Positions 19,987-31,489 of a DNA stretch of 32,143 bases are shown piece by piece (position 1 is the stretch's first letter; every line of letters begins with the position of its first letter). Both the position numbers and the translations under genes were made by a program. The DNA comes from Syntrophorhabdaceae bacterium. Its GTDB lineage: Bacteria > Desulfobacterota > Syntrophorhabdia > Syntrophorhabdales > Syntrophorhabdaceae. The notes below the pieces were generated by a model that worked only from the letters and a program-made list of their open reading frames with translations, was not told where the DNA came from and made no database searches. The DNA is taken from the NCBI GenBank assembly GCA_026415675.1, contig JAOAGQ010000051.1, positions 1 through 32,143 of the forward strand, in the 5' to 3' direction.

Positions 19987-21960
19987 ATGAACAGGTTCAA
20001 AGTAAAGTTTCTTCCCTTAGACCGGATTTACACTACCGATGGAGATGAAACCATCCTCGATGTTGCCATGAAATTCGGGGTCCATATAAACGCCTCCTGC
20101 GGTGGGAACGCCTCCTGCGGTAAATGTAAAATAAAGGTCGTAGAAGGTAATATATCTTCTCCCCTCCACCCGAGGATACCGAAATGGGAATACGATGCGG
20201 GGTTCAGGCTTGCCTGTATGACAAGGCCCAAATCCGATGTGGTTATAGAGATACCCTTTGAATCCCAGATAGATAGATATGCCTTGAAGCAAAAGGAGAG
20301 GGCCTCCCTCATACTATCCCCCTCAGACCTGGGGGAACTCGTCAAGGGGTGGGAGGTGGATCCTGCGGTCTTTAAAAGGTATCTCGAACTTCCGCCCCCC
20401 TCTGGGGAGGATAACGTATCTGATCTCGATAGGCTGACAAGGGAGTTGAGGCAGACATTCAATGGTATCTCTGTTGATTTCAGGGTTATCACAAAGATGA
20501 GTAGAATTTTAAGGGAGGCCAACTGGAAGGTCACGGTCACCCTTGTCTTAACGAGAAAGGGTTACAAACTTATTAATATTGAGCCGGGGAATACGGCGGA
20601 TAAAAACTACTCGATAGTGATAGATATAGGGACAACAACGGTATGCGGCCAGCTCCTCGACCTTGCAAACTGTAGTGTCTTCAGCCTTAAAGAGACAACG
20701 GGCAACGGAAGGGATGTATGTACCCTTGCGGAATCCTCCGACTATAACGCCCAGATCAGTTACGGCGAGGATGTGATCTCGAGGATCATGTACTCCCAGA
20801 AGAAGGGGGGGTTGAAAAAGCTGCAGGAGTCGGTGGTGAATACGATAAACGGGGTGATAAAGGAACTCCTCGATATAAGCGGGGTGGACGTGGGGTATAT
20901 ATCCCACCTTGTATTTGCAGGAAATACGACGATGACCCATCTTGCGCTCGGGCTCGACCCCAAATATATCATGCTCTCCCCTTATACACCCACCGCAACA
21001 TTCATACCCCCTGTAAGGGCTATCCATCTCGGGATAAACGTGAAAGACCACGTCCATATATACATCTTTCCCTGTGTTGCATCTTATGTGGGAGGGGATA
21101 TCGTTGCCGGGGTTTTAGGCTCAGGGATCTTCCAGAGGGACAAGACCACCCTTTTCATGGATATTGGAACGAACGGAGAGATAGTCCTTGGAAACAGAGA
21201 CTGGCTTTTATGTACATCGTGTTCCGCAGGGCCGGCCTTCGAGGGGGGTGGAATAAAATTCGGAATGAGGGCCGGAAGGGGCGCTATAGAGCAGGTAAGG
21301 ATAAACCCGAGCACGTATGAACCCATGATACTGACCATAGGGAGGAGTAAGCCCATGGGTATCTGTGGTTCGGGATTGATAGATATCGTCTCTGAACTTA
21401 CCGAGACAGGCCTTATAGACCAGAGGGGGAAATTTATAAGGGATAAAGGTATAAAAAGGATAAGGGAGGGGGAAAGTGGGTATGAGTATGTGCTCTGTTA
21501 TGCCCCCGAGACCCAGATAAACAGGGACATTGTCCTGACAGAGGCCGATATAGACAATCTTATAAGGGCAAAGGCAGCGATATACGGAGGGTGCAAGATA
21601 CTCCTTGAGAGTGCTGGGCTTACCTTTCAAGACCTCGATATGGTGATAATTGCCGGTGGTTTTGGCCATTATATCAGTCTTGAAAAGGCGATTATGATAG
21701 GTCTTCTTCCGGAATTGGCGGAGGATAAGTTCCTCTTTGTGGGGAATGGCTCCCTTTTGGGCGCGAGGCTACTCTCCTTCTCCCAGGGTTTTTTGGGAGA
21801 GACGGAAAGGATAGCGAGGACGATGACCAATGTTGAGCTTTCAAATAATACAAGGTTCATGGATGAATATATCGCTGCCATGTTTATCCCCCATACAGAC
21901 CAAGGGGCGTTTCCGAAGGTAATGGAGCGTTTGAGGGCAAATAGGGAAAAGGAGATATAG
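19987..21960 (+). CDS. acsV: Reductive activator of the corrinoid iron-sulfur protein (RACo/AcsV)
   Basis: RACo uses ATP hydrolysis to re-reduce the corrinoid of AcsCD from inactive Co(II) to Co(I). The 657-residue product begins with a [2Fe-2S] ferredoxin domain with Cys38, Cys44, Cys47 and Cys77 (ASCGGNASCGKCK, then LACMT). After a linker and middle domain, the C-terminal half is an ASKHA-type ATPase: DIGTTT (213-218), FAGNTTMTHLALGL, FMDIGTNGEIVLGN and IIAGGFGHYISLEKA. ATG 19987 has only a weak AGGA about ten bases upstream. It is the first gene of the acs cluster, divergent from degQ. Length and domain order match the family. Confidence 0.92.
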   Translation: MNRFKVKFLPLDRIYTTDGDETILDVAMKFGVHINASCGGNASCGKCKIKVVEGNISSPLHPRIPKWEYDAGFRLACMTRPKSDVVIEIPFESQIDRYALKQKERASLILSPSDLGELVKGWEVDPAVFKRYLELPPPSGEDNVSDLDRLTRELRQTFNGISVDFRVITKMSRILREANWKVTVTLVLTRKGYKLINIEPGNTADKNYSIVIDIGTTTVCGQLLDLANCSVFSLKETTGNGRDVCTLAESSDYNAQISYGEDVISRIMYSQKKGGLKKLQESVVNTINGVIKELLDISGVDVGYISHLVFAGNTTMTHLALGLDPKYIMLSPYTPTATFIPPVRAIHLGINVKDHVHIYIFPCVASYVGGDIVAGVLGSGIFQRDKTTLFMDIGTNGEIVLGNRDWLLCTSCSAGPAFEGGGIKFGMRAGRGAIEQVRINPSTYEPMILTIGRSKPMGICGSGLIDIVSELTETGLIDQRGKFIRDKGIKRIREGESGYEYVLCYAPETQINRDIVLTEADIDNLIRAKAAIYGGCKILLESAGLTFQDLDMVIIAGGFGHYISLEKAIMIGLLPELAEDKFLFVGNGSLLGARLLSFSQGFLGETERIARTMTNVELSNNTRFMDEYIAAMFIPHTDQGAFPKVMERLRANREKEI

Positions 21961-21973
21961 AAAAGGGGTTGAG

Positions 21974-22741
21974 ATGCAGAAGGTGATAGCGGTAGCTGGA
22001 AAAGGGGGGGTTGGAAAGACGACGATGGCCGGTCTTATGGTGAGGTATCTCGTAGAGGAGTTAGGGTCGAGGTCTGTCCTCGCCGTCGATGCAGACCCCA
22101 ATTCAAACCTCAACGAGGTCCTCGGTATGGAGGTGAGGGTTACCATCGGTGATGCGAGAGAGGTGATGAAGAAGGAAGTACCCATTGGTATGACGAAGGA
22201 TGTATGGTTTGAGTATAAGGTCCATGAGGCGGTGATCGAAGGAAATGGTTTCGACCTCCTTGTGATGGGACGGCCTGAGGGTCCAGGCTGTTACTGTGCC
22301 GCAAATACCCTTGCGAAAAAATATATAGACACTTTGAGGGAAAACTATGCCTATGTTGTTGTGGACAACGAGGCAGGTATGGAGCATATAAGCAGGCTTG
22401 TAACCCAAGACATAGATACCCTCTATATCTTTTCAGATGCCACAAAAAGGGGGATAATAACCGCAAAGAGGATAGAGGAACTGATCCTGAACCTAAACCT
22501 TAATATAAGAGAACACTACGTAGTTGTGAACAGGATAAAAGCTAAGGAGGAAGGGGAATTAGAGGCCTATGCTCGACAGATCGGGATAAAGATAGAAGGG
22601 TTTATAAGAAATGACGATGTGTTGGCGGAGAACGATATATCAGGAAGGACTGTTTTTGAGTTGAGCAAAGATTCACAAGCCCTTTCAGATGCTTATAGAA
22701 TCTTCGAAGCGACAATAAAAAAACAAAAAGAAGAAAATTAG
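21974..22741 (+). CDS. cooC: CODH nickel-insertion accessory ATPase CooC
   Basis: CooC is a P-loop ATPase (MinD/NifH type) needed to mature the Ni-Fe-S cluster of CO dehydrogenase. The 255-residue product has the deviant Walker A motif GKGGVGKTT (9-17), VDADPNSN (38-45) and the Walker B-like YVVVDNEAGMEHISR. Cys106 and Cys108 form the CYC version of the CXC motif, which in CooC proteins binds metal between two subunits. The gene starts 13 bases after the acsV stop behind AGGGG. The position beside acsV and acsA fits this role over a ParA-like function. Confidence 0.93.
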   Translation: MQKVIAVAGKGGVGKTTMAGLMVRYLVEELGSRSVLAVDADPNSNLNEVLGMEVRVTIGDAREVMKKEVPIGMTKDVWFEYKVHEAVIEGNGFDLLVMGRPEGPGCYCAANTLAKKYIDTLRENYAYVVVDNEAGMEHISRLVTQDIDTLYIFSDATKRGIITAKRIEELILNLNLNIREHYVVVNRIKAKEEGELEAYARQIGIKIEGFIRNDDVLAENDISGRTVFELSKDSQALSDAYRIFEATIKKQKEEN

Positions 22742-22830: not shown

Positions 22831-23718
22831 ATGAGTGCAAAAATCATAAGCGGCACCGAGATTGCGTCTCAGATTAGAGAGGAGATCAAATCGGAGACGG
22901 AGAGGTTAAACAGGGATTACGGTATATCCCCCGGACTTCTCACCATCATTGTAGGGAATAACCCCGCATCGGTCAGTTATGTAACGGCAAAACAGAAGAC
23001 CGCCAAAGAACTGGGTTTCTATTCTGTACAGGAGGATTTACCGGAGGATACATCGGAGGAGACACTTCTTAGTGTAATAGACAGATACAACAGAGATCCA
23101 AAGATACACGGGATACTTGTCCAACTCCCCCTGCCTAAACAGATAAACGAAAACAAGGTGCTCTATGCGATCGACCCCGATAAGGATGTGGATGGATTCC
23201 ACCCTGTGAACGTGGGCAGACTCATGATAGGGGAGGGCCGTTATTATCCGTGCACACCCTACGGTATCCAACAGATGCTGATAAGGAGTGGCGTAGAGAT
23301 CGATGGGGCAGAGGTGGTTGTGGTGGGTAGGAGTAACATAGTTGGAAAACCCATCTCAATGATGCTCGTCCAGAAGGCAAAAGGGGCAAATGCCACGGTG
23401 ACCATGTGCCATACGGGCACAAAAAATCTATCTTCCCACACAAAAAGGGCAGACATACTCATTGTTGCAGCAGGCAGACCGAAGGCGATCACAGCGGATA
23501 TGGTAAAAGAAGGGGCCGTCGTGATAGATGTAGGGGTAAACAGGATAGGGATGACCCCGGAAGGAAAGGCAAAACTATGCGGTGATGTAGATTTTGATGC
23601 TGTAAAAGAGAAGGCTTCTGCCATAACCCCTGTACCTGGAGGTGTAGGTCCCATGACCATTACCATGCTCATGTTGAATACACTGAAGGCTGCAAAGTTT
23701 GCCCACAACATCACATAG
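22831..23718 (+). CDS. folD: Bifunctional methylenetetrahydrofolate dehydrogenase / methenyltetrahydrofolate cyclohydrolase
   Basis: FolD interconverts 10-formyl-, methenyl- and methylene-tetrahydrofolate with NADP(H), two steps of the methyl branch of the Wood-Ljungdahl pathway. The 295-residue product has the active-site segment SYVTAKQKTAKELG with Tyr50 and Lys54, ILVQLPLP, PDKDVDGFHP, and the nucleotide-binding VVVVGRSNIVGKPI, as well as PGGVGPMTITML near the end. The ATG follows a very strong AAGGAGGGG. It lies inside the acs cluster between cooC and a small unknown gene, linking folate and CODH/ACS chemistry. Confidence 0.97.
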   Translation: MSAKIISGTEIASQIREEIKSETERLNRDYGISPGLLTIIVGNNPASVSYVTAKQKTAKELGFYSVQEDLPEDTSEETLLSVIDRYNRDPKIHGILVQLPLPKQINENKVLYAIDPDKDVDGFHPVNVGRLMIGEGRYYPCTPYGIQQMLIRSGVEIDGAEVVVVGRSNIVGKPISMMLVQKAKGANATVTMCHTGTKNLSSHTKRADILIVAAGRPKAITADMVKEGAVVIDVGVNRIGMTPEGKAKLCGDVDFDAVKEKASAITPVPGGVGPMTITMLMLNTLKAAKFAHNIT

Positions 23719-23764
23719 AGAAGTCTATTTACCGTTACTCCAAGATAAAGATCAGGAGGTCTTT

Positions 23765-23980
23765 ATGAACAACTATCAATACGAGGAGAAAGAGAGTTTC
23801 GATGGGAGAAAGGTTAAAGTCTTGGGTCCCACCTATGAGGAGGGAAAACCCCAGGGTATGCAGGACTGGAAGGTAAAGCTCGGGGGCAGGGAGGAGATAC
23901 TTGGCTACCTTAAAACGGCGTTGAGATATTGGTATAGCAAGGACTGGTTCGGTAGCGAGAGGAGAAAGCAAGAGGCGTAA
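23765..23980 (+). CDS. Unrecognised 71-residue protein inside the CODH/ACS cluster
   Basis: The frame begins at ATG 23765 behind a strong AGGAGG (23754-23759, five-base spacing). The frame is open further upstream but lacks a ribosome site there. The product is soluble and highly charged, with no signal peptide, membrane segment, Cys or His, so cluster or Ni binding through thiols or imidazoles is unlikely. The first 35 residues (MNNYQYEEKESFDGRKVKVL onward) look extended and polar. The C-terminal half contains DWKVKLGG, a likely amphipathic helix (EEILGYLKTALRYWYS) and KDWFG, with Trp35, Trp56 and Trp61. It lies 46 bases after folD and 26 bases before acsD. I do not recognise the family; a small partner of the corrinoid protein or CODH/ACS is a guess from location. 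Confidence 0.75.
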   Translation: MNNYQYEEKESFDGRKVKVLGPTYEEGKPQGMQDWKVKLGGREEILGYLKTALRYWYSKDWFGSERRKQEA

Positions 23981-24006
23981 ATAAAGAGAAATAAAGGGAG
24001 GCATAC

Positions 24007-24951
24007 ATGGCTTTTGAGATACCAAAGATAAAATATACAGGAAAGATAAGGGAAGTGACCATAGGGATACCCCCAAATGAGGTCACAATCGGGGGAGAGA
24101 GTTGTTATCCCTTCTATCTTTTTGAAGGGGATATGCCCTATAAGCCGAGGGTTGCCTTTGAGGTATGGGACCATGAACCTCAGGAATGGCAGAGCTGGGC
24201 GGTGGAACCCTTTGCGGATGTGATACATAGCCCTTCTGCATGGGCAAAAAAATGTGTGGAATCATACGGTGCGGAAATCATAGCCCTCCAGCTTAAAAGT
24301 GCAGACCCAAACGGTATGAATAGGGATGTGGAAGAGGTTGTCTCTGTAGTAAAGGATGTGATAAATAGCGTCAATGTTCCTGTTATTGTATGGGGTACTG
24401 CAAACGACGAGAAGGATACCGCCCTTTTAAGGAGGGTGGCAGAGGTCTGTGAGGGTAAAAATGTTGCCATAGGGCCTGTCACAGAGAAGAACTACAAGCA
24501 GATAGGGGCCATGGCAATAGGGTATAACCAGGTTGTCCTTGCCTCCACCCCGATAGATGTCAACCTCGCAAAGCAGCTTAACATACTCCTCGGTAATCTT
24601 GGCGTAAAAGACGATAAACTCGCGGTGGACCCAACAACAGGGGGTCTCGGCTACGGCCTTGAATACACCTATTCTGTGATAGAGAGAGACAGGATGGCGG
24701 CCTTGACCCAGGAGGATGTGAAACTACAGTATCCCATAGTCTGCAACCTCGCCAATGAGGTATGGAAGACAAAGGAGACAAAGGTAACGAAAGAGGAAGA
24801 CCCTAAAATGGGGGATGAGAAAAAGAGGGCCATCCTGATGGAGGGGGTTACGGCGATGACTCTTTTGATCGCAGGGGCCGATATCGTGATCATGAGACAT
24901 CCCGATAGTGTGGCCCTGGTTAAAGAAATGATAAAAGAATTGACAGCTTAA
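24007..24951 (+). CDS. acsD: CODH/ACS corrinoid iron-sulfur protein small subunit (delta)
   Basis: AcsD pairs with AcsC to form the corrinoid iron-sulfur protein that carries the methyl group. The 314-residue product is a TIM-barrel protein. Family segments are MAFEIPKIKYTGKIREV, VAFEVWDHEP, AEIIALQLKSADPNG, VPVIVWGTANDEKD, and the C-terminal DPTTGGLGYGLEYTYSVIE. It has no [4Fe-4S] motif, as expected for the small subunit. The ATG has GGGAGG five bases before. It lies nine bases before acsA. Length agrees with the bacterial family. Confidence 0.95.
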   Translation: MAFEIPKIKYTGKIREVTIGIPPNEVTIGGESCYPFYLFEGDMPYKPRVAFEVWDHEPQEWQSWAVEPFADVIHSPSAWAKKCVESYGAEIIALQLKSADPNGMNRDVEEVVSVVKDVINSVNVPVIVWGTANDEKDTALLRRVAEVCEGKNVAIGPVTEKNYKQIGAMAIGYNQVVLASTPIDVNLAKQLNILLGNLGVKDDKLAVDPTTGGLGYGLEYTYSVIERDRMAALTQEDVKLQYPIVCNLANEVWKTKETKVTKEEDPKMGDEKKRAILMEGVTAMTLLIAGADIVIMRHPDSVALVKEMIKELTA

Positions 24952-24960
24952 GGAGGAGGT

Positions 24961-26907
24961 ATGTCTGAGGAAAAAGTGAGAAGCGTTGATAAGGCGACTC
25001 TTGAGCTCATCGAGAAGGCGCAGAGTGATAAGATAAGCACTGTGTTCTCAAGGGCAGATGAGATAAAACCATGTCCGATAGGGGTTGAAGAGAGCTGCTG
25101 TAAGATCTGTGCGATGGGGCCATGCAGGCTTCCAAGGTCCAAAAAGGAAGAGCAGAAGGAGCGCCGGGGGGTATGCGGGGCAACGATAGAGACGGTCGTT
25201 GCAAGGAACTTTGCGAGAAAGGTGGCTGCAGGAGCGGCCTCCCATAGTGACCACTCGAGGGAAGTTGTGGAGACGTTCATAAAGGCGGCAAAAGGGGAGG
25301 CACAGGGTTTTGAGATAAAGGATGAGGTGAAACTCCTCGAGGTTGCCCTTGATTTCGGCATAGAGATAGAGAACAGGGATCCGAAGGAGATAGCCCTTGA
25401 ACTCGGAGAAAAGGCCTTACAAGAATTCGGAAAACAGCACGGAGAGCTCACCTATATAAAGAAGGCACCTTTAAGAAGGCAGGAGATATGGAGAAAATAC
25501 GGCGTTGTCCCGAGGGGTATAGATAGGGAAGTCGTTGAGATTATGCACAGGACCCATATGGGGGTGGATCAGGATTACAAACATCTCCTCCTCCAGGCTA
25601 CGAGATGTGCCCTTGCCGATGGTTGGGGTGGTTCCATGATCTCAACAGACCTCCAAGATATCATGTTTGGAACCCCCGTTCCTGTTCTCGGTAATATAAA
25701 CCTCGGTGTTTTAAAGGAAGACCATGTGAATGTTGTGGTCCACGGGCACGAGCCCCTTCTGCCGGAACTCCTGGTTGTTGCAAGTAAAGACCCTGAGATA
25801 AAGGCGATGGCGGAGAAGGTGGGGGCAAAGGGTATTAACCTTGCCGGCATGTGCTGTTCTGCCAACGAGGTGTTGATGAGACACGGGATACCCTGTGCAG
25901 GTAATTTCCTCCAACAGGAACTTGCCCTTATAACCGGGGCCGTTGAGGTGATGACCGTCGATGTCCAGTGCGAGATGCAGGGGTTAAAGGATGTGGCGGA
26001 ATGTTTCCACACGAGACTTATAACCACTTCAAACAGGGCAAAGATAGAGGGGGCAGACCATATAGAGTTTCACCCCGAAACAGGTCTTGATACGGCAAAG
26101 AGGATACTGAAAATCGCAATAGAAAATTTCCCCAACAGGAAACATACCGTCCATATACCTGCCTACAGCCAGGATACCGTTGTGGGGTTTAGCCATGAAA
26201 CGATCAACTATCTCTTAGGGGGTTTATTCAGGGCGAGTTACAGACCCCTAAACGACAACATTATAAACGGTAGGATTAGGGGTGTGGCAGGGGTAGTGGG
26301 TTGTAACAACGTCCGTACCACCCATGATTCCGCCCATTTGACCATGATTAAAGAGCTTATAAAGAACGATGTGATCGTCCTGACCACCGGTTGTGCTGCC
26401 ATGGCATGCGGCAAGGCAGGTTTACTTACCCCTGAGGCGGCGGCACAGTACGCCGGTTCAGGCCTTGCCGAGGTCTGTGAGGCGGTGGGGATCCCTCCTG
26501 TGCTCCATATGGGGGCCTGTGTGGACAACTCGAGGATTCTGATTGCGGCAACCGCTATGGTAAAGGAAGGGGGCTTAGGAGATGATATAAGTGACCTCCC
26601 CGCTGCGGGGGCGGCCCCGGAGTGGATGAGCGAGAAGGCCTTGGCAATAGGCCAGTACTTCGTTGCATCAGGGGTTTTCACGGTTTTCGGTACAACGTGG
26701 CCTACCCTCGGAAGTGAACGGGTAACCCGCCACCTCTTTGAAGAACTCGAAGATATGTATAAAGGCAAATGGGCCTTTGAACCCGACCCTGAAAAGGCGG
26801 CGAAATTGATGTTAGAGCATATCGACAAGAAGAGGAAGGCCTTAGGTATTGACAAGGCAAGGGAAAGGGTACTCTTCGACATGGCCATGAGAAGGGCACT
26901 CGCATAA
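24961..26907 (+). CDS. acsA: Carbon monoxide dehydrogenase catalytic subunit of CODH/ACS
   Basis: This Ni-Fe-S enzyme interconverts CO2 and CO and passes CO to AcsB. The 648-residue product has the N-terminal D- and B-cluster cysteines Cys38, Cys46, Cys47, Cys50, Cys55 and Cys72 (CPIGVEESCCKICAMGPC), and the SHSDHSR histidine segment (95-101) implicated in proton relay. C-cluster segments follow: NLAGMCCSANEV, DVQCEMQG, GVVGCNNV, TTGCAAMACGK and HMGACVDNSR. All expected metal ligands are present. Its place beside acsB and acsD supports a CODH/ACS role over a stand-alone CooS. The ATG has AAGGAGG just upstream. Confidence 0.97.
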   Translation: MSEEKVRSVDKATLELIEKAQSDKISTVFSRADEIKPCPIGVEESCCKICAMGPCRLPRSKKEEQKERRGVCGATIETVVARNFARKVAAGAASHSDHSREVVETFIKAAKGEAQGFEIKDEVKLLEVALDFGIEIENRDPKEIALELGEKALQEFGKQHGELTYIKKAPLRRQEIWRKYGVVPRGIDREVVEIMHRTHMGVDQDYKHLLLQATRCALADGWGGSMISTDLQDIMFGTPVPVLGNINLGVLKEDHVNVVVHGHEPLLPELLVVASKDPEIKAMAEKVGAKGINLAGMCCSANEVLMRHGIPCAGNFLQQELALITGAVEVMTVDVQCEMQGLKDVAECFHTRLITTSNRAKIEGADHIEFHPETGLDTAKRILKIAIENFPNRKHTVHIPAYSQDTVVGFSHETINYLLGGLFRASYRPLNDNIINGRIRGVAGVVGCNNVRTTHDSAHLTMIKELIKNDVIVLTTGCAAMACGKAGLLTPEAAAQYAGSGLAEVCEAVGIPPVLHMGACVDNSRILIAATAMVKEGGLGDDISDLPAAGAAPEWMSEKALAIGQYFVASGVFTVFGTTWPTLGSERVTRHLFEELEDMYKGKWAFEPDPEKAAKLMLEHIDKKRKALGIDKARERVLFDMAMRRALA

Positions 26908-26912: not shown

Positions 26913-26920
26913 TAATGGAT

Positions 26921-29128
26921 ATGTCAAAGATAATCGCATCCGCAGCAATAAGAGGAGCACACAAGATATACAACAGGGCGGAGGAGATGTATAAGATGGC
27001 CCTGGAAAAATATGGACCGGATCAAGAGGTGGGCTTTCCTAATACCGCTTACTATCTCCCTATCATATATGCCATCACAGGCATAGGGGTATCGAAAATA
27101 GGAGAGATGGGGAAGATCCTCGAGATATGCAGAAAACTGATACCCCCACCTGTAAAAGAAAGGACCCACCTGCCCTATCTCGCCCCTGCCCTTGACGCAG
27201 GGATGGCGACGTTTTTTGCCGAGGAGATCATAGAGTCTATAAGGTATCTCGAAGAACCTAATCTCTATCTTGCAAACAGCGAGGATGTAACTGAAACCAA
27301 CATATGGCTCGGGGCGGCGAATGACCTGATATTCAGGAAAAGGGGTGTTGAATTCGTAGATGGTACGGCCCCGGGTTTTGCCGCAATAGTAGGGGCCGCC
27401 CCTGACCCCCAGACAGCGGCCAAGATCGCCCTTGAGCTTCAGGAGAAGAATCTATACGTCTTTATGTGCGCGGAGCATGAGGGGAAGAGGTTTGCAGAAC
27501 AGCTTATAGAGTCAGGGACGCAGATCGGATGGCCCACAAGGCTTGTATCCTTTGGCCCTGATATCTCTGCCGCTGTCTTTGCGATAGGTTTTGCATGCAG
27601 GGTCGCCATGGCCTTCGGGGGTGTGAAACCAGGGGATTTCAGAAAAAACCTCATTTACAACAAGGACAGGACATATGCCTTTGTTCTTGCCATGGGTACG
27701 GTGACGGATGAGTGGTATGCGAATGCCGCAGGGGCGATAAACTGGGGCTTCCCCACAATAGCGGATACACCTATCCCCCAGGTATTGCCTACCGGCATAT
27801 GCACGTACGAACACGTTGTCTCCAATGTGCCCCATGACCATATCACACAGAAGGCCGTTGAGGTGAGGGGCCTAAAGGTGCAGGTCTCAAAGGTTCCCGT
27901 CCCCGTTGCGTATGGTCCTGCCTTCGAAGGGGAGCGGGTGAGGGGAGAGGATATATACGTTGAGATGGGGGGAGGAAAGACCATCGCCGTAGAATGGACC
28001 ACGTCGAAAAGGATGGAAGAGGTTGAGGATGGTAGGGTAGAGGTGATAGGTAAGGATGTGACGGATGTACCTCCAGGTTCAAGGTTACACTTTGCCATGG
28101 TGGCGGAGGTGGCAGGAAGGAATTTTCAGGAGGACTTTGAGCCAATTTTGGAGAGGCAGAACCACCATTTGATAAACCAGGCGCAAGGGGTGATGCACAT
28201 CGGACAGAGGGATATCGCATGGATCAGGATTTCAAAACAGGCGGTGGAGAAGGGGTTCAAGCTTGAGCACATAGGGAAGATTATCCACGCAAAATACCAC
28301 CAGGATTTCGGTGCGATTTTCGATAAGGTACAGGTGAAGATTTATACCGATGAAGAGAAGGTGAGGGAGATCCTTGAGAAGGCAAGGGCATCCTACGAAC
28401 ACAGGGACAACAGGATAGAGGGCATGACAGACGAAGGGGTGGATGTATTTTACTCCTGCGTGCTCTGCCAGTCCTTTGCCCCTAACCACGTATGTATTGT
28501 GAGTCCGGAGAGGACAGGGCTATGTGGGGCATACAACTGGCTTGATTGTAAGGCCTCATACGAGATAAACCCCGAAGGGCCAAACCAGCCCGTTCAGAAA
28601 GGGGAGTGTATAGATGAGAAGTACGGCCAGTTTAAGGGGTGTAATGACTTTGTCTTTAAGGCGTCAAGGCAGAAGATATCGAGTGTGAGTTTTTATAGCC
28701 TCATGGTTGACCCCATGACCACATGCGGTTGCTGCGAGTGTATCGCTGCCGTTCTCCCCATGTGCAACGGGATTATGACCGTGGACAGGGACTATCTCGA
28801 TATCACCCCCTGCGGTATGAAATTCACAACCCTCGCAGGCTCTGTGGGTGGTGGTGCCCAGACCCCTGGTTTTGTAGGTCACAGTAAATACAATATAACC
28901 CAGAGGAAATACCTAAAGGGTGACGGTGGTCTTTTAAGGATGGTGTGGATGCCGAAAAGACTGAAAGAGGAACTCGCAGACAGGCTAAAAAAGAGGGCGG
29001 AAGAACTGGGTATTCCAGACCTCATAGACAAGATAGCGGATGAGACCGTTGCAAAGACAGAAGAAGAGGTGCTGGCATATATAACAGAGAAGGGCCATCC
29101 GTGTCTCACCATGGAGCCGATTATATGA
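26921..29128 (+). CDS. acsB: Acetyl-CoA synthase (ACS), CODH/ACS beta subunit
   Basis: ACS condenses a methyl group, CO and CoA into acetyl-CoA at the Ni-Ni-[4Fe-4S] A-cluster. The product has 735 residues from ATG 26921, the full bacterial three-domain form including the N-terminal CODH-contacting domain missing from archaeal CdhC. A-cluster ligands are Cys513, Cys516, Cys525 and Cys535 (SCVLCQSF, HVCIV, TGLCGAY, LDCKAS), and Cys602 and Cys604 in TTCGCCECI. Compared with the Moorella residues I recall (506, 509, 518, 528, 595, 597), each is shifted by exactly seven, so there is no net insertion or deletion between them. An alternative ATG at 26915 adds two residues. Confidence 0.97.
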   Translation: MSKIIASAAIRGAHKIYNRAEEMYKMALEKYGPDQEVGFPNTAYYLPIIYAITGIGVSKIGEMGKILEICRKLIPPPVKERTHLPYLAPALDAGMATFFAEEIIESIRYLEEPNLYLANSEDVTETNIWLGAANDLIFRKRGVEFVDGTAPGFAAIVGAAPDPQTAAKIALELQEKNLYVFMCAEHEGKRFAEQLIESGTQIGWPTRLVSFGPDISAAVFAIGFACRVAMAFGGVKPGDFRKNLIYNKDRTYAFVLAMGTVTDEWYANAAGAINWGFPTIADTPIPQVLPTGICTYEHVVSNVPHDHITQKAVEVRGLKVQVSKVPVPVAYGPAFEGERVRGEDIYVEMGGGKTIAVEWTTSKRMEEVEDGRVEVIGKDVTDVPPGSRLHFAMVAEVAGRNFQEDFEPILERQNHHLINQAQGVMHIGQRDIAWIRISKQAVEKGFKLEHIGKIIHAKYHQDFGAIFDKVQVKIYTDEEKVREILEKARASYEHRDNRIEGMTDEGVDVFYSCVLCQSFAPNHVCIVSPERTGLCGAYNWLDCKASYEINPEGPNQPVQKGECIDEKYGQFKGCNDFVFKASRQKISSVSFYSLMVDPMTTCGCCECIAAVLPMCNGIMTVDRDYLDITPCGMKFTTLAGSVGGGAQTPGFVGHSKYNITQRKYLKGDGGLLRMVWMPKRLKEELADRLKKRAEELGIPDLIDKIADETVAKTEEEVLAYITEKGHPCLTMEPII

Positions 29129-29168: not shown

Positions 29169-30506
29169 ATGGCACTTTCGGGGATTCAGATATTCAAACT
29201 CCTCCCAAAGACGAACTGCGGAGAGTGTAAATTTCCCACTTGCCTTGCCTTTGCCATGGCCCTTGCGGCAGCCAAGGCAGAGCTCGATGCCTGCCCATAT
29301 ATTTCAGACGAGGCGAGGGAGCAACTTTCCGATGCCAGTGCCCCTCCCATAAGACAGCTATCCATAGGTTCGGGGGATTATGAGGTAAAAATTGGTGGCG
29401 AGACCGTCATGTTCAGACACGAGAAGACGTTTTTCAATAAACCGGGTCTTGCGATTTTGATTACAGATACGATGGATACGGTGGAGGTGGAGAACCGCTT
29501 TTTAAAGCTTAAGTTATTCCAGTATGAGCGGGTGGGTCTGACCTTAAAGGCCGAGATGGTCGCCTTAAAATACACGGGGAACAAGGAGAATTTTATCAAC
29601 CTTGTGAAAAAAGGCTGTGGTGAACCCTATAGTCTCATACTCATGGCGGAGGATGCCTCTGTTATGAGAGAGGCCCTTGAGGTAGCGAAGGGGAAGAAAC
29701 CCCTCATATATGCGGCAACAACGGAAAACTGTGATGCCTATGGTGCCCTTGCAAAGGAATACTCATGTCCCCTTGCTGTAAAAGGCCAGGGACTGGAAGG
29801 GGTATCTGTTTTGACGGAAAAACTATCCGCTATGGGTCTAAAAGACCTTGTGATCGATACCTCCACAAGGACATTGAAAGAGGCATTTCAGGAGCAGATC
29901 ATCATCAGAAGGGCGGCCCTTGTAAATAAATATAAGCCCTTTGGCTATCCCACGATAGTGTTCCCATCGGACATGGCGGATGACCTGATGAAGGAGACGA
30001 TGATCGCCTCCTGTTTTATCCCCAAATATGCAGGTATCGTTGTGATGAGCAATTTTGAAGGGGAGAGCCTCTTTCCATTACTCCTCCAGAGGCTAAATAT
30101 CTACACGGACCCCCAGAGACCCATGACAACCCAGCAGGGTATCTATCCGATAAACAACCCCGATGAGAACTCCCCTGTCCTTGTGACCTGCAATTTTTCT
30201 CTCACCTATTTTATCGTGAGCGGTGAGATTGAAAACTCAAGGGTTCCGAGCTGGCTTCTTGTGATGGACACCGAAGGACTCTCCGTCATGACCGCATGGG
30301 CTGCCGGTAAGTTCGTAGGGGATGTGGTCGGCCCTTTTATTAAAAAGAGCGGTATTACCGATAAGATAAAACACAGGAAGGTGATCATCCCGGGCTATGC
30401 CGCGGCCATCCTCGGGGATCTGGAAGAGGAGTTGCCCGGATGGGAGATACTCATTGGACCGAGGGAGGCTGCCCATATTCCGTCGTTTTTGAGGGGGCTG
30501 GTCTGA
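29169..30506 (+). CDS. acsC: CODH/ACS corrinoid iron-sulfur protein large subunit (gamma)
   Basis: AcsC binds the cobamide and a [4Fe-4S] cluster and accepts the methyl group from AcsE. The 445-residue product has the N-terminal cluster motif with Cys17, Cys20, Cys25 and Cys42 (TNCGECKFPTC, then DACPYIS). A TIM-barrel region follows (about 90-320), then the C-terminal B12-binding domain (about 325-445, with GEIENSRVPSWLLVMDTEGLS and GYAAAILGDLEEELPGW). The ATG follows AAAGGAG. It lies 40 bases after acsB and 42 before acsE, completing the corrinoid protein together with acsD. Confidence 0.96.
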   Translation: MALSGIQIFKLLPKTNCGECKFPTCLAFAMALAAAKAELDACPYISDEAREQLSDASAPPIRQLSIGSGDYEVKIGGETVMFRHEKTFFNKPGLAILITDTMDTVEVENRFLKLKLFQYERVGLTLKAEMVALKYTGNKENFINLVKKGCGEPYSLILMAEDASVMREALEVAKGKKPLIYAATTENCDAYGALAKEYSCPLAVKGQGLEGVSVLTEKLSAMGLKDLVIDTSTRTLKEAFQEQIIIRRAALVNKYKPFGYPTIVFPSDMADDLMKETMIASCFIPKYAGIVVMSNFEGESLFPLLLQRLNIYTDPQRPMTTQQGIYPINNPDENSPVLVTCNFSLTYFIVSGEIENSRVPSWLLVMDTEGLSVMTAWAAGKFVGDVVGPFIKKSGITDKIKHRKVIIPGYAAAILGDLEEELPGWEILIGPREAAHIPSFLRGLV

Positions 30507-30548: not shown

Positions 30549-31427
30549 ATGTTACTCATCGGTGAGAACCTAAACGTAATCTCCAAGAAGATCGGGGAGG
30601 CCTTAAAGCAGAGGGACCCTGAACCGATAAGGGAGATGGCGATAAAAGAGGCTAAGGCAGGGATGGATCTTATAGATATCAACCTCGGACCTGCGAGAAA
30701 AGAGGGCCCTGATCTGATGGAATGGGTGGTAAATATAGTCCAGGAGGTGGTAGATATACCCCTCTGTCTCGATACGACAAACATAGAGGCCATGGAGGCT
30801 GGCCTTAAGGCATATAAAGGAAAGGCGCTTATAAATTCCATCTCTGCAAGGCCGGAGAGGATTGAGGCGTTGATGCCCATGGCAAAGAAGTATAACGCCT
30901 CCTTCATCGCCTTAACCTTGGGGGTTGAAGGTATACCAAGGGATGCCAACGAGAGGGGACTCCTTGCGGCCCAACTCATAGCAGAGGCTGCAAACTACGG
31001 TCTTTCTGAAGAGGATATGTGGATAGACCCCATAGTATTGCCGATTAACACCCAACAGATACAGGTTCAGGGCTGTACTGAGTTTGTGATGATGCTCCCG
31101 GAGATCGCGCCAAACTCAAAATCAACCTGCGGTTTATCCAACATCTCGAACGGGGCACCGGGTCATCTAAGGGGTATACTAAACAGGACATACCTGATTA
31201 TGCTCAAGAGATACGGTATGTATTCCGCTATAGTCGATGCCTTCGACGAGGAGTTATATGCGATAGCAAAGGGTAAGATGCCCGAGATTGAAAACCTTGT
31301 CTATAAGGTGATGGACGGGGAGGATATAAGCTATGAAGGTCTCTCCAAAAAAGAGATAGACTATGTAAAGACCGCAAAGGTCCTACTGGGTCAGACCCTC
31401 TATTCTGACTCATGGCTTGAACTATAA
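30549..31427 (+). CDS. acsE: 5-methyltetrahydrofolate:corrinoid iron-sulfur protein methyltransferase
   Basis: AcsE (MeTr) moves methyl from methyl-tetrahydrofolate to the Co(I) centre of AcsCD, joining the folate branch to acetyl-CoA synthesis. The 292-residue product is a pterin-binding TIM barrel with LLIGENLNVI, GMDLIDINLGPAR, Asp75 (CLDTTN), Asn96 (LINSISA), Asp160 (WIDPIVLP) and Asn198 (CGLSNISNG). These sit at or within one residue of the folate-binding positions known for the Moorella enzyme (75, 96, 160, 199). The C-terminus is about 30 residues longer than the Moorella protein. The ATG has AGGAGG six bases before. It is the last gene of the cluster. Confidence 0.95.
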   Translation: MLLIGENLNVISKKIGEALKQRDPEPIREMAIKEAKAGMDLIDINLGPARKEGPDLMEWVVNIVQEVVDIPLCLDTTNIEAMEAGLKAYKGKALINSISARPERIEALMPMAKKYNASFIALTLGVEGIPRDANERGLLAAQLIAEAANYGLSEEDMWIDPIVLPINTQQIQVQGCTEFVMMLPEIAPNSKSTCGLSNISNGAPGHLRGILNRTYLIMLKRYGMYSAIVDAFDEELYAIAKGKMPEIENLVYKVMDGEDISYEGLSKKEIDYVKTAKVLLGQTLYSDSWLEL

Positions 31428-31442: not shown

Positions 31443-31489
31443 ATACGGCAGGTTCTGTCGGAGGGGCCTGCCGTATCTTATATTTTTTT
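31443..31489 (+). terminator. Strong rho-independent terminator after acsE
   Basis: ATACGGCAGG (31443-31452) pairs perfectly with CCTGCCGTAT (31467-31476) around a 14-base loop, followed by a T-rich run ending in seven T (to 31489). It ends the acs cluster 15 bases after the acsE stop and separates it from ileS. Confidence 0.9.

Follow-up and report, generated by a model that had tools for sequence, protein, structure and literature searches.

The window analysed here, a stretch of 32,143 nucleotides from a Syntrophorhabdaceae bacterium, contains a CODH/ACS operon in which the genes, all but small assigned by Pfam and NCBIfam matches, are arranged in the order acsV-cooC-folD-small-acsD-cooS-acsB-acsC-acsE. 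The short gene between folD and acsD is called small and its product Small. The features of the region are listed below, and the stem-loop behind acsE likely marks the operon end.

19987-21960, plus strand: acsV-like corrinoid activator gene (NF040756 below cut-off, 663.6 bits)
21974-22741, plus strand: cooC-like ATPase gene (family match)
22831-23718, plus strand: folD, the inconstant upstream neighbour of small (PF02882)
23754-23759, plus strand: Shine-Dalgarno sequence AGGAGG of small, 5 nt before the ATG (sequence)
23765-23980, plus strand: small, encoding the 71-aa protein Small, a predicted adaptor subunit of CFeSP/CODH-ACS (ORF, 46-member alignment, dN/dS, synteny)
23777-23824, plus strand: N-terminal part of Small, about residues 5-20, a predicted weak beta-hairpin (AlphaFold2 model)
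23924-23968, plus strand: signature tail of Small, RYWYSKDWFGSERRK, residues 54-68 (alignments A2 and A3)
23996-24001, plus strand: Shine-Dalgarno sequence GGGAGG of acsD (sequence)
24007-24951, plus strand: acsD, small subunit of the corrinoid iron-sulfur protein (CFeSP), putative partner of Small by adjacency and gene fusion (PF03599; NF003377)
24961-26907, plus strand: cooS/acsA, CODH catalytic subunit, whose type predicts whether small is present (PF03063, TIGR01702; trees)
26915-29128, plus strand: acsB, acetyl-CoA synthase (ACS), whose N-terminal domain holds most sites separating genomes with and without Small (NF040764)
29169-30506, plus strand: acsC, CFeSP large subunit (NF003195)
30549-31427, plus strand: acsE, methyltransferase (PF00809, NF005719)
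31443-31476, plus strand: terminator-like stem-loop 3' of acsE (sequence)

The small ORF has an ATG start and a TAA stop and encodes 71 amino acids, with a spacing of 46 nt from folD upstream and 26 nt to acsD downstream. Purine-rich sites like its AGGAGG were also found upstream of the small gene in most homologous loci. Among close relatives the median dN/dS of the gene was 0.15 (72 pairs unsaturated at synonymous sites), and two overlapping minus-strand ORFs were unsupported; selection acts on the plus frame. The original prediction had described a real gene with a ribosome site, encoding a protein without Cys or His and with three Trp. The position of the ribosome site, the homologs in three phyla and the low dN/dS agree with the former, while the translation, with zero Cys, zero His and Trp at 35, 56 and 61, matches the latter. 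Judged from sequence conservation, small is a real, conserved gene common to many anaerobic bacteria, belonging to an ancient system of carbon-fixing enzymes.

The genome samples were drawn from three phyla, and most sources were MAGs. Within the same order, homologs of Small were detected in 43 of 46 genomes at E ≤ 1, including 39 strong ones (E < 1e-8) in exactly the genomes with a close acsD; without Small were five genomes lacking acsD and two with a distant acsD (41-43% identity). In the phylum sample Small was present in 44 of 297 genomes, and acsD in all 44 of these versus 193 of 297 overall (P = 8e-10). Two further phyla, entered via MAGs labelled Dehalococcoides and Spirochaetes, yielded Small in 6 of 400 and 9 of 296 genomes, respectively. 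AcsD was found in 28 genomes of the Spirochaetota sample (296); the nine with the 63-67% AcsD type were exactly the nine with Small, which occurred in 0 of the 19 with the distant (35-44%) type (P = 1.4e-7). A plasmid collection gave no match to Small. Because many bacteria with CODH/ACS have no Small, the protein is not essential to CODH/ACS chemistry. In several Spirochaetota homologs (L117, L125, L127, L128, L130 and L131) the profile match crosses a stop codon; the gene at L004 ends in GSEKRK, and the last residues (xPA/QEA) seem absent from such Spirochaetota homologs.

Across 46 Small sequences, G27, W35, R54, Y55, G63, S64 and E65 were invariant, and W56, W61, K66, R67 and K68 nearly so. 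The tail of residues 54-68, with the pattern RYWYS.(D/E)W(F/Y)GSEKRK, is the best-conserved part of the protein, is present in all fusions described below and always stands at the extreme C-terminus. The mean charge was -2.3 in the N-terminal part versus +3.7 in the C-terminal part. AlphaFold2 run on the Small alignment gave a hairpin (6-10/16-20) and helices at 35-38, 42-52 and 54-57, with a mean pLDDT of 70 and a pTM of 0.33. The amphipathic C-terminal helix proposed at first is matched only in part by the short helices of this model. Since the tail takes no firm predicted structure, it would be compatible with folding upon contact with a partner. Three AcsD fusions (F7-F9) have an eroded N-terminal half and keep W35 and the tail, and we infer from these losses that the N-terminal half normally attaches the protein to AcsD and is dispensable once the two are covalently joined.

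No credible match to Small was obtained in Pfam, NCBIfam, PADLOC, PDB sequences or PDB folds, using the single sequence and, where tried, the alignment. The best Pfam E value was 0.003, reached by few members only and to inconsistent families, and Foldseek with the AlphaFold2 model of the 71-aa protein, which is weak, returned nothing below E 2.9. PF03599, the TIM barrel of AcsD/CdhD, was absent from Small and 46 homologs in a Pfam scan at the gathering score. In the open-access literature no paper describing Small was found, and term searches found no description of it in the Chloroflexi Wood-Ljungdahl paper (PMC5736913) or the D. autotrophicum genome paper (PMC2702500). The family had been put forward as undescribed, with which the blank results from Pfam, NCBIfam and PDB are in accord. 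Three observations had been named in advance as speaking against the prediction, namely an absence of acs-linked homologs, non-coding substitutions and a match to a known family, and none was made.

CODH gene clusters also encode the nickel maturation proteins CooT, CooJ and CooC, which are small proteins or ATPases. Small differs from them in having no conserved metal-binding residues and no sequence match, and no metal-ligand His or Cys of the CooJ/CooT metallochaperone type is conserved across the 46 sequences. A metallochaperone, against which the original prediction had already argued, is ruled out by the absence of conserved ligands.

In the sequences compared, Small was associated exclusively with AcsD, by adjacency or fusion. 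In 59 of 59 distinct stand-alone loci from the three phyla, small was followed immediately by acsD in the same orientation; six of these pairs overlap or abut, 35 are separated by 1-60 nt, and the gaps extend up to 232 nt. In some loci the acsD Shine-Dalgarno sequence is inside the small ORF. In 10 genomes Small is the C-terminal domain of an AcsD of about 500 aa, joined through a linker of about 130 residues that AlphaFold2 predicted at low confidence and that is probably flexible. The PF03599 and NF003377 matches end at residues 296-298 and 337-415 of these fusions, before the Small domain. When a natural AcsD-Small fusion was modelled, the barrel was confident, the linker disordered and the tail low-confidence, so that docking was unreadable from the model. 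No divergent Small was found upstream of bare acsD genes. The question raised at the outset, whether homologs always sit beside acsD, is thereby answered by 59 adjoining loci and 10 genomes with a fusion, and constant adjacency together with fusion supports the suggestion of a small protein-protein partner near AcsD.

Other AcsD architectures were also seen. AcsD tails of about 180 aa, rich in Ala, Lys and Glu, occur in many genomes without Small (L096-L103 and L172-L180), and most of them terminate in a short conserved motif, for example ILEKLNRIHGR. They were considered as divergent Small and rejected, having no profile match and another C-terminal motif; their ends are possibly an analogous docking tail. 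MetF (MTHFR)-AcsD fusions of about 1050 aa were found at L112:3609-6749, confirmed by Pfam, and at L113:3334-6567, recognised by sequence resemblance only. An ACS-AcsD fusion is encoded at L143:1480-3864 (Spirochaetota), with the distant AcsD type and no small gene.

The presence of Small followed CODH type rather than AcsD type in the trees compared. In 74 genomes, the changes between presence and absence numbered 2 on the CODH tree, 3 on the ACS tree and 5 on the AcsD tree, a modest difference on quick maximum-likelihood trees; in the 66 genomes with AcsC the counts were 2 for CODH, 3 for ACS, 3 for AcsD and 4 for AcsC. On the ACS tree, built from 56 loci where the run cooS-acsB-acsC is intact, one branch split loci with Small from those without it (99% SH-aLRT), and no AcsD site separated the two groups. 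The original prediction had also offered AcsA as a partner, and this option gains independent support because Small follows CODH type and not AcsD type.

The CODH argument rests on three loss events only, in lineages where Small is missing and AcsD/ACS are akin to those of relatives with Small, but the CODH is another one. Families are given here by anonymous labels from the genome search (f1, f22 etc.), and Desulfobacterales-type is our own name for the clade L172-L180, not a tool-assigned taxonomy. The first loss lies in family f22, in genomes G136 and G164, with CooC and AcsD typical of the family (71-82%). In G164, AcsD is 80-82% and AcsC 84-88% identical to relatives with Small of its own family. 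The CODHs of both genomes, however, share 82-88% identity with the nearest CODHs of Desulfobacterales type versus 61-66% with their own family (64-66% for G164). In G164 the foreign type extends to the N-terminal and middle domains of ACS (up to 82% vs 63-69%) but not to the C-terminal domain (87-91% vs 65-72%); the breakpoint is near residues 471-499. No remnant of Small was found between CooC and AcsD in either genome. The AcsD-CODH junction of G164 recurs in the separate genome G136, about 96-97% identical at the protein level. At L196:1003-5404 of G164, cooS and acsB (its first two thirds) are swapped for another type, and ACS is split into an ORF of 510 aa and a second one for the C-terminal domain. 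The swap is apparently a recombination, and the junction within ACS could be an assembly error. A further CODH of G164, encoded at an unlinked site, belongs to the clade found with Small, yet the genome has no Small.

The second loss comprises families f20, f7, f31 and f80, with an unlinked cooS in a separate clade (100%). The third is family f4, whose unlinked cooS is Desulfobacterales-type in two of three genomes and belongs to another clade without Small in the third. In G200, cooS is likewise unlinked, yet of the type found with Small, and Small is kept as a fusion; therefore linkage alone is not the explanation. Two genomes with Small, G070 and G144, have AcsD fused to CODH in one polypeptide. 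These fusions (L163:6425-9874 and L164:416-3784) contain a long Pro/Ala-rich linker, with a stand-alone small gene just upstream. One further locus, L181 of G115, a genome scored as 100% complete, has folD, acsD, acsB, acsC and acsE and no CODH match to the CooS of the window.

The sites separating ACS of genomes with Small from ACS of those without it numbered 15 in the N-terminal, 4 in the middle and 1 in the C-terminal domain. Most other deep splits of the ACS tree were more even or C-terminal-rich, the exception being a nested split among genomes without Small, which was also N-terminal. The ACS N-terminal domain binds CODH in acetogens (PMC11474084) and contacts AcsD, the CFeSP beta subunit, in an AlphaFold3 model (PMC12289521). 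A position of Small at or near the junction of ACS N-terminal domain, CODH and AcsD would fit, because Small appears to be tied to AcsD and to have been selected jointly with CODH. Since both CODH and the ACS N-terminal domain are exchanged in G164, either could be the partner. The median number of residues before PCxIG in CODH was 36 in genomes with Small, 54 in Desulfobacterales-type and 45 in other genomes without it. Separately, AcsB of family f39 (L187, L188 and L190), which has no Small, carries an acidic Trp/Glu/Gly end, EWGEEEGEAEWGSGEGEDEGW, absent from the other AcsB sequences compared; considered as a relocated Small, this tail was rejected as non-homologous.

We propose, at a probability of roughly 0.58, that Small is a CFeSP-CODH/ACS adaptor, associated with AcsD and docking CFeSP through its C-terminal tail on the cognate CODH/ACS core. 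Small would associate with AcsD, the CFeSP small subunit, and its conserved aromatic-basic tail would dock the cognate CODH, possibly with the ACS N-terminal domain. As CFeSP has to leave and rejoin ACS in every cycle, a flexible tail borne by AcsD and gripping CODH/ACS could raise the local CFeSP concentration and still allow the swing, and in this way Small might keep CFeSP at the enzyme for methyl transfer. Tethering could also help electrons pass from CODH to the corrinoid, perhaps in reductive reactivation; with conserved cofactor ligands absent, Small itself is probably not a redox carrier. The binding of Small to AcsD and CODH/ACS, the assignment of each half to a partner and the functional benefit are what we infer from sequence comparison.

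Constant adjacency and fusion to AcsD, along with co-occurrence, would also suit a third structural subunit of CFeSP only, one that stabilises AcsD/AcsC and makes no contact with CODH/ACS. We regard this as unlikely, since G164 and G136 kept AcsD and CooC of their own family (G164 also AcsC), yet lost Small with the exchanged CODH (in G164 with part of ACS as well), since the AcsD and AcsC trees fit its presence worse than the CODH tree, and since AcsD has no separating site. A factor that matures or assembles the cognate CODH/ACS, by nickel insertion or folding, and is co-translated with acsD would account for the tracking of CODH type, and the cluster also encodes the maturation ATPase CooC. 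Such a role appears rather improbable for a protein with no conserved Cys or His; in 10 genomes, moreover, it is covalently joined to AcsD, as would be expected of a permanent subunit more than of a transient chaperone.

The overlapping or abutting stop and start codons in 6 of the 59 loci, and the acsD Shine-Dalgarno sequences within small, recall a regulatory leader ORF with translation coupled to acsD and a nearly idle product. This has hardly any probability left: the amino acid sequence is strongly conserved, the gaps to acsD can be long, and the same sequence occurs as a C-terminal domain of AcsD, so that the fusions and the dN/dS rule out a leader peptide. Least probable of all is a FolD partner channelling methylene-THF into the pathway; FolD had been one of the partners offered by the original prediction, and in this respect it did not hold. 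Although folD precedes small here and in many loci, the genes upstream of small vary (folD, cooC and others), and folD was not found beside small in L015, L017, L021, L030-L032, L034 and L037-L046, among others, while acsD was always adjacent. No FolD-Small fusion was among the matches in the samples of the order, the phylum and the two other phyla. Non-adjacency in so many loci excludes FolD as an obligate partner.

The adaptor reading may be set beside known systems. Small resembles AcsD/CdhD, the CFeSP small (beta/delta) subunit, in being its C-terminal domain in some genomes and its gene neighbour elsewhere, and likely belongs to the same assembly; it differs in lacking a TIM barrel and any similarity to the region matched by PF03599 or NF003377, and the PDB search matched no Small-like domain in solved CFeSP structures. 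In methanogens, ACDS forms a stable 2.2 MDa complex (PMC11474084). The proposed outcome, CFeSP held at CODH/ACS, would be alike. The parts differ: the archaeal complex includes an epsilon subunit, its ACS lacks the A1 domain, and Small, seen here in bacterial samples, is not known from it. The N- and C-terminal extensions of Moorella CODH bind ACS (PMC11474084) and, as is proposed for Small, are lineage-specific additions at the CODH/ACS core that mediate docking. However, they belong to CODH, while Small is separate or on AcsD, and CODHs accompanying Small have a shorter N-terminus.

Going further, we tentatively consider, at somewhat under even odds, that Small is an undescribed subunit, obligate in one CODH/ACS class, and a docking module specific to CODH that would hold CFeSP at the core or time its swing in Thermodesulfobacteriota, Spirochaetota and the Dehalococcoides-labelled phylum, giving a methanogen-like integrated complex instead of free CFeSP. 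The natural AcsD-Small fusions are ready-made constructs fixing Small to CFeSP, and the CODH-exchange genomes point to the candidate partner. If a conserved subunit lies outside the searched family databases, the bacterial parts list of the textbooks (AcsABCDE) would be missing a component for an entire class of anaerobes.
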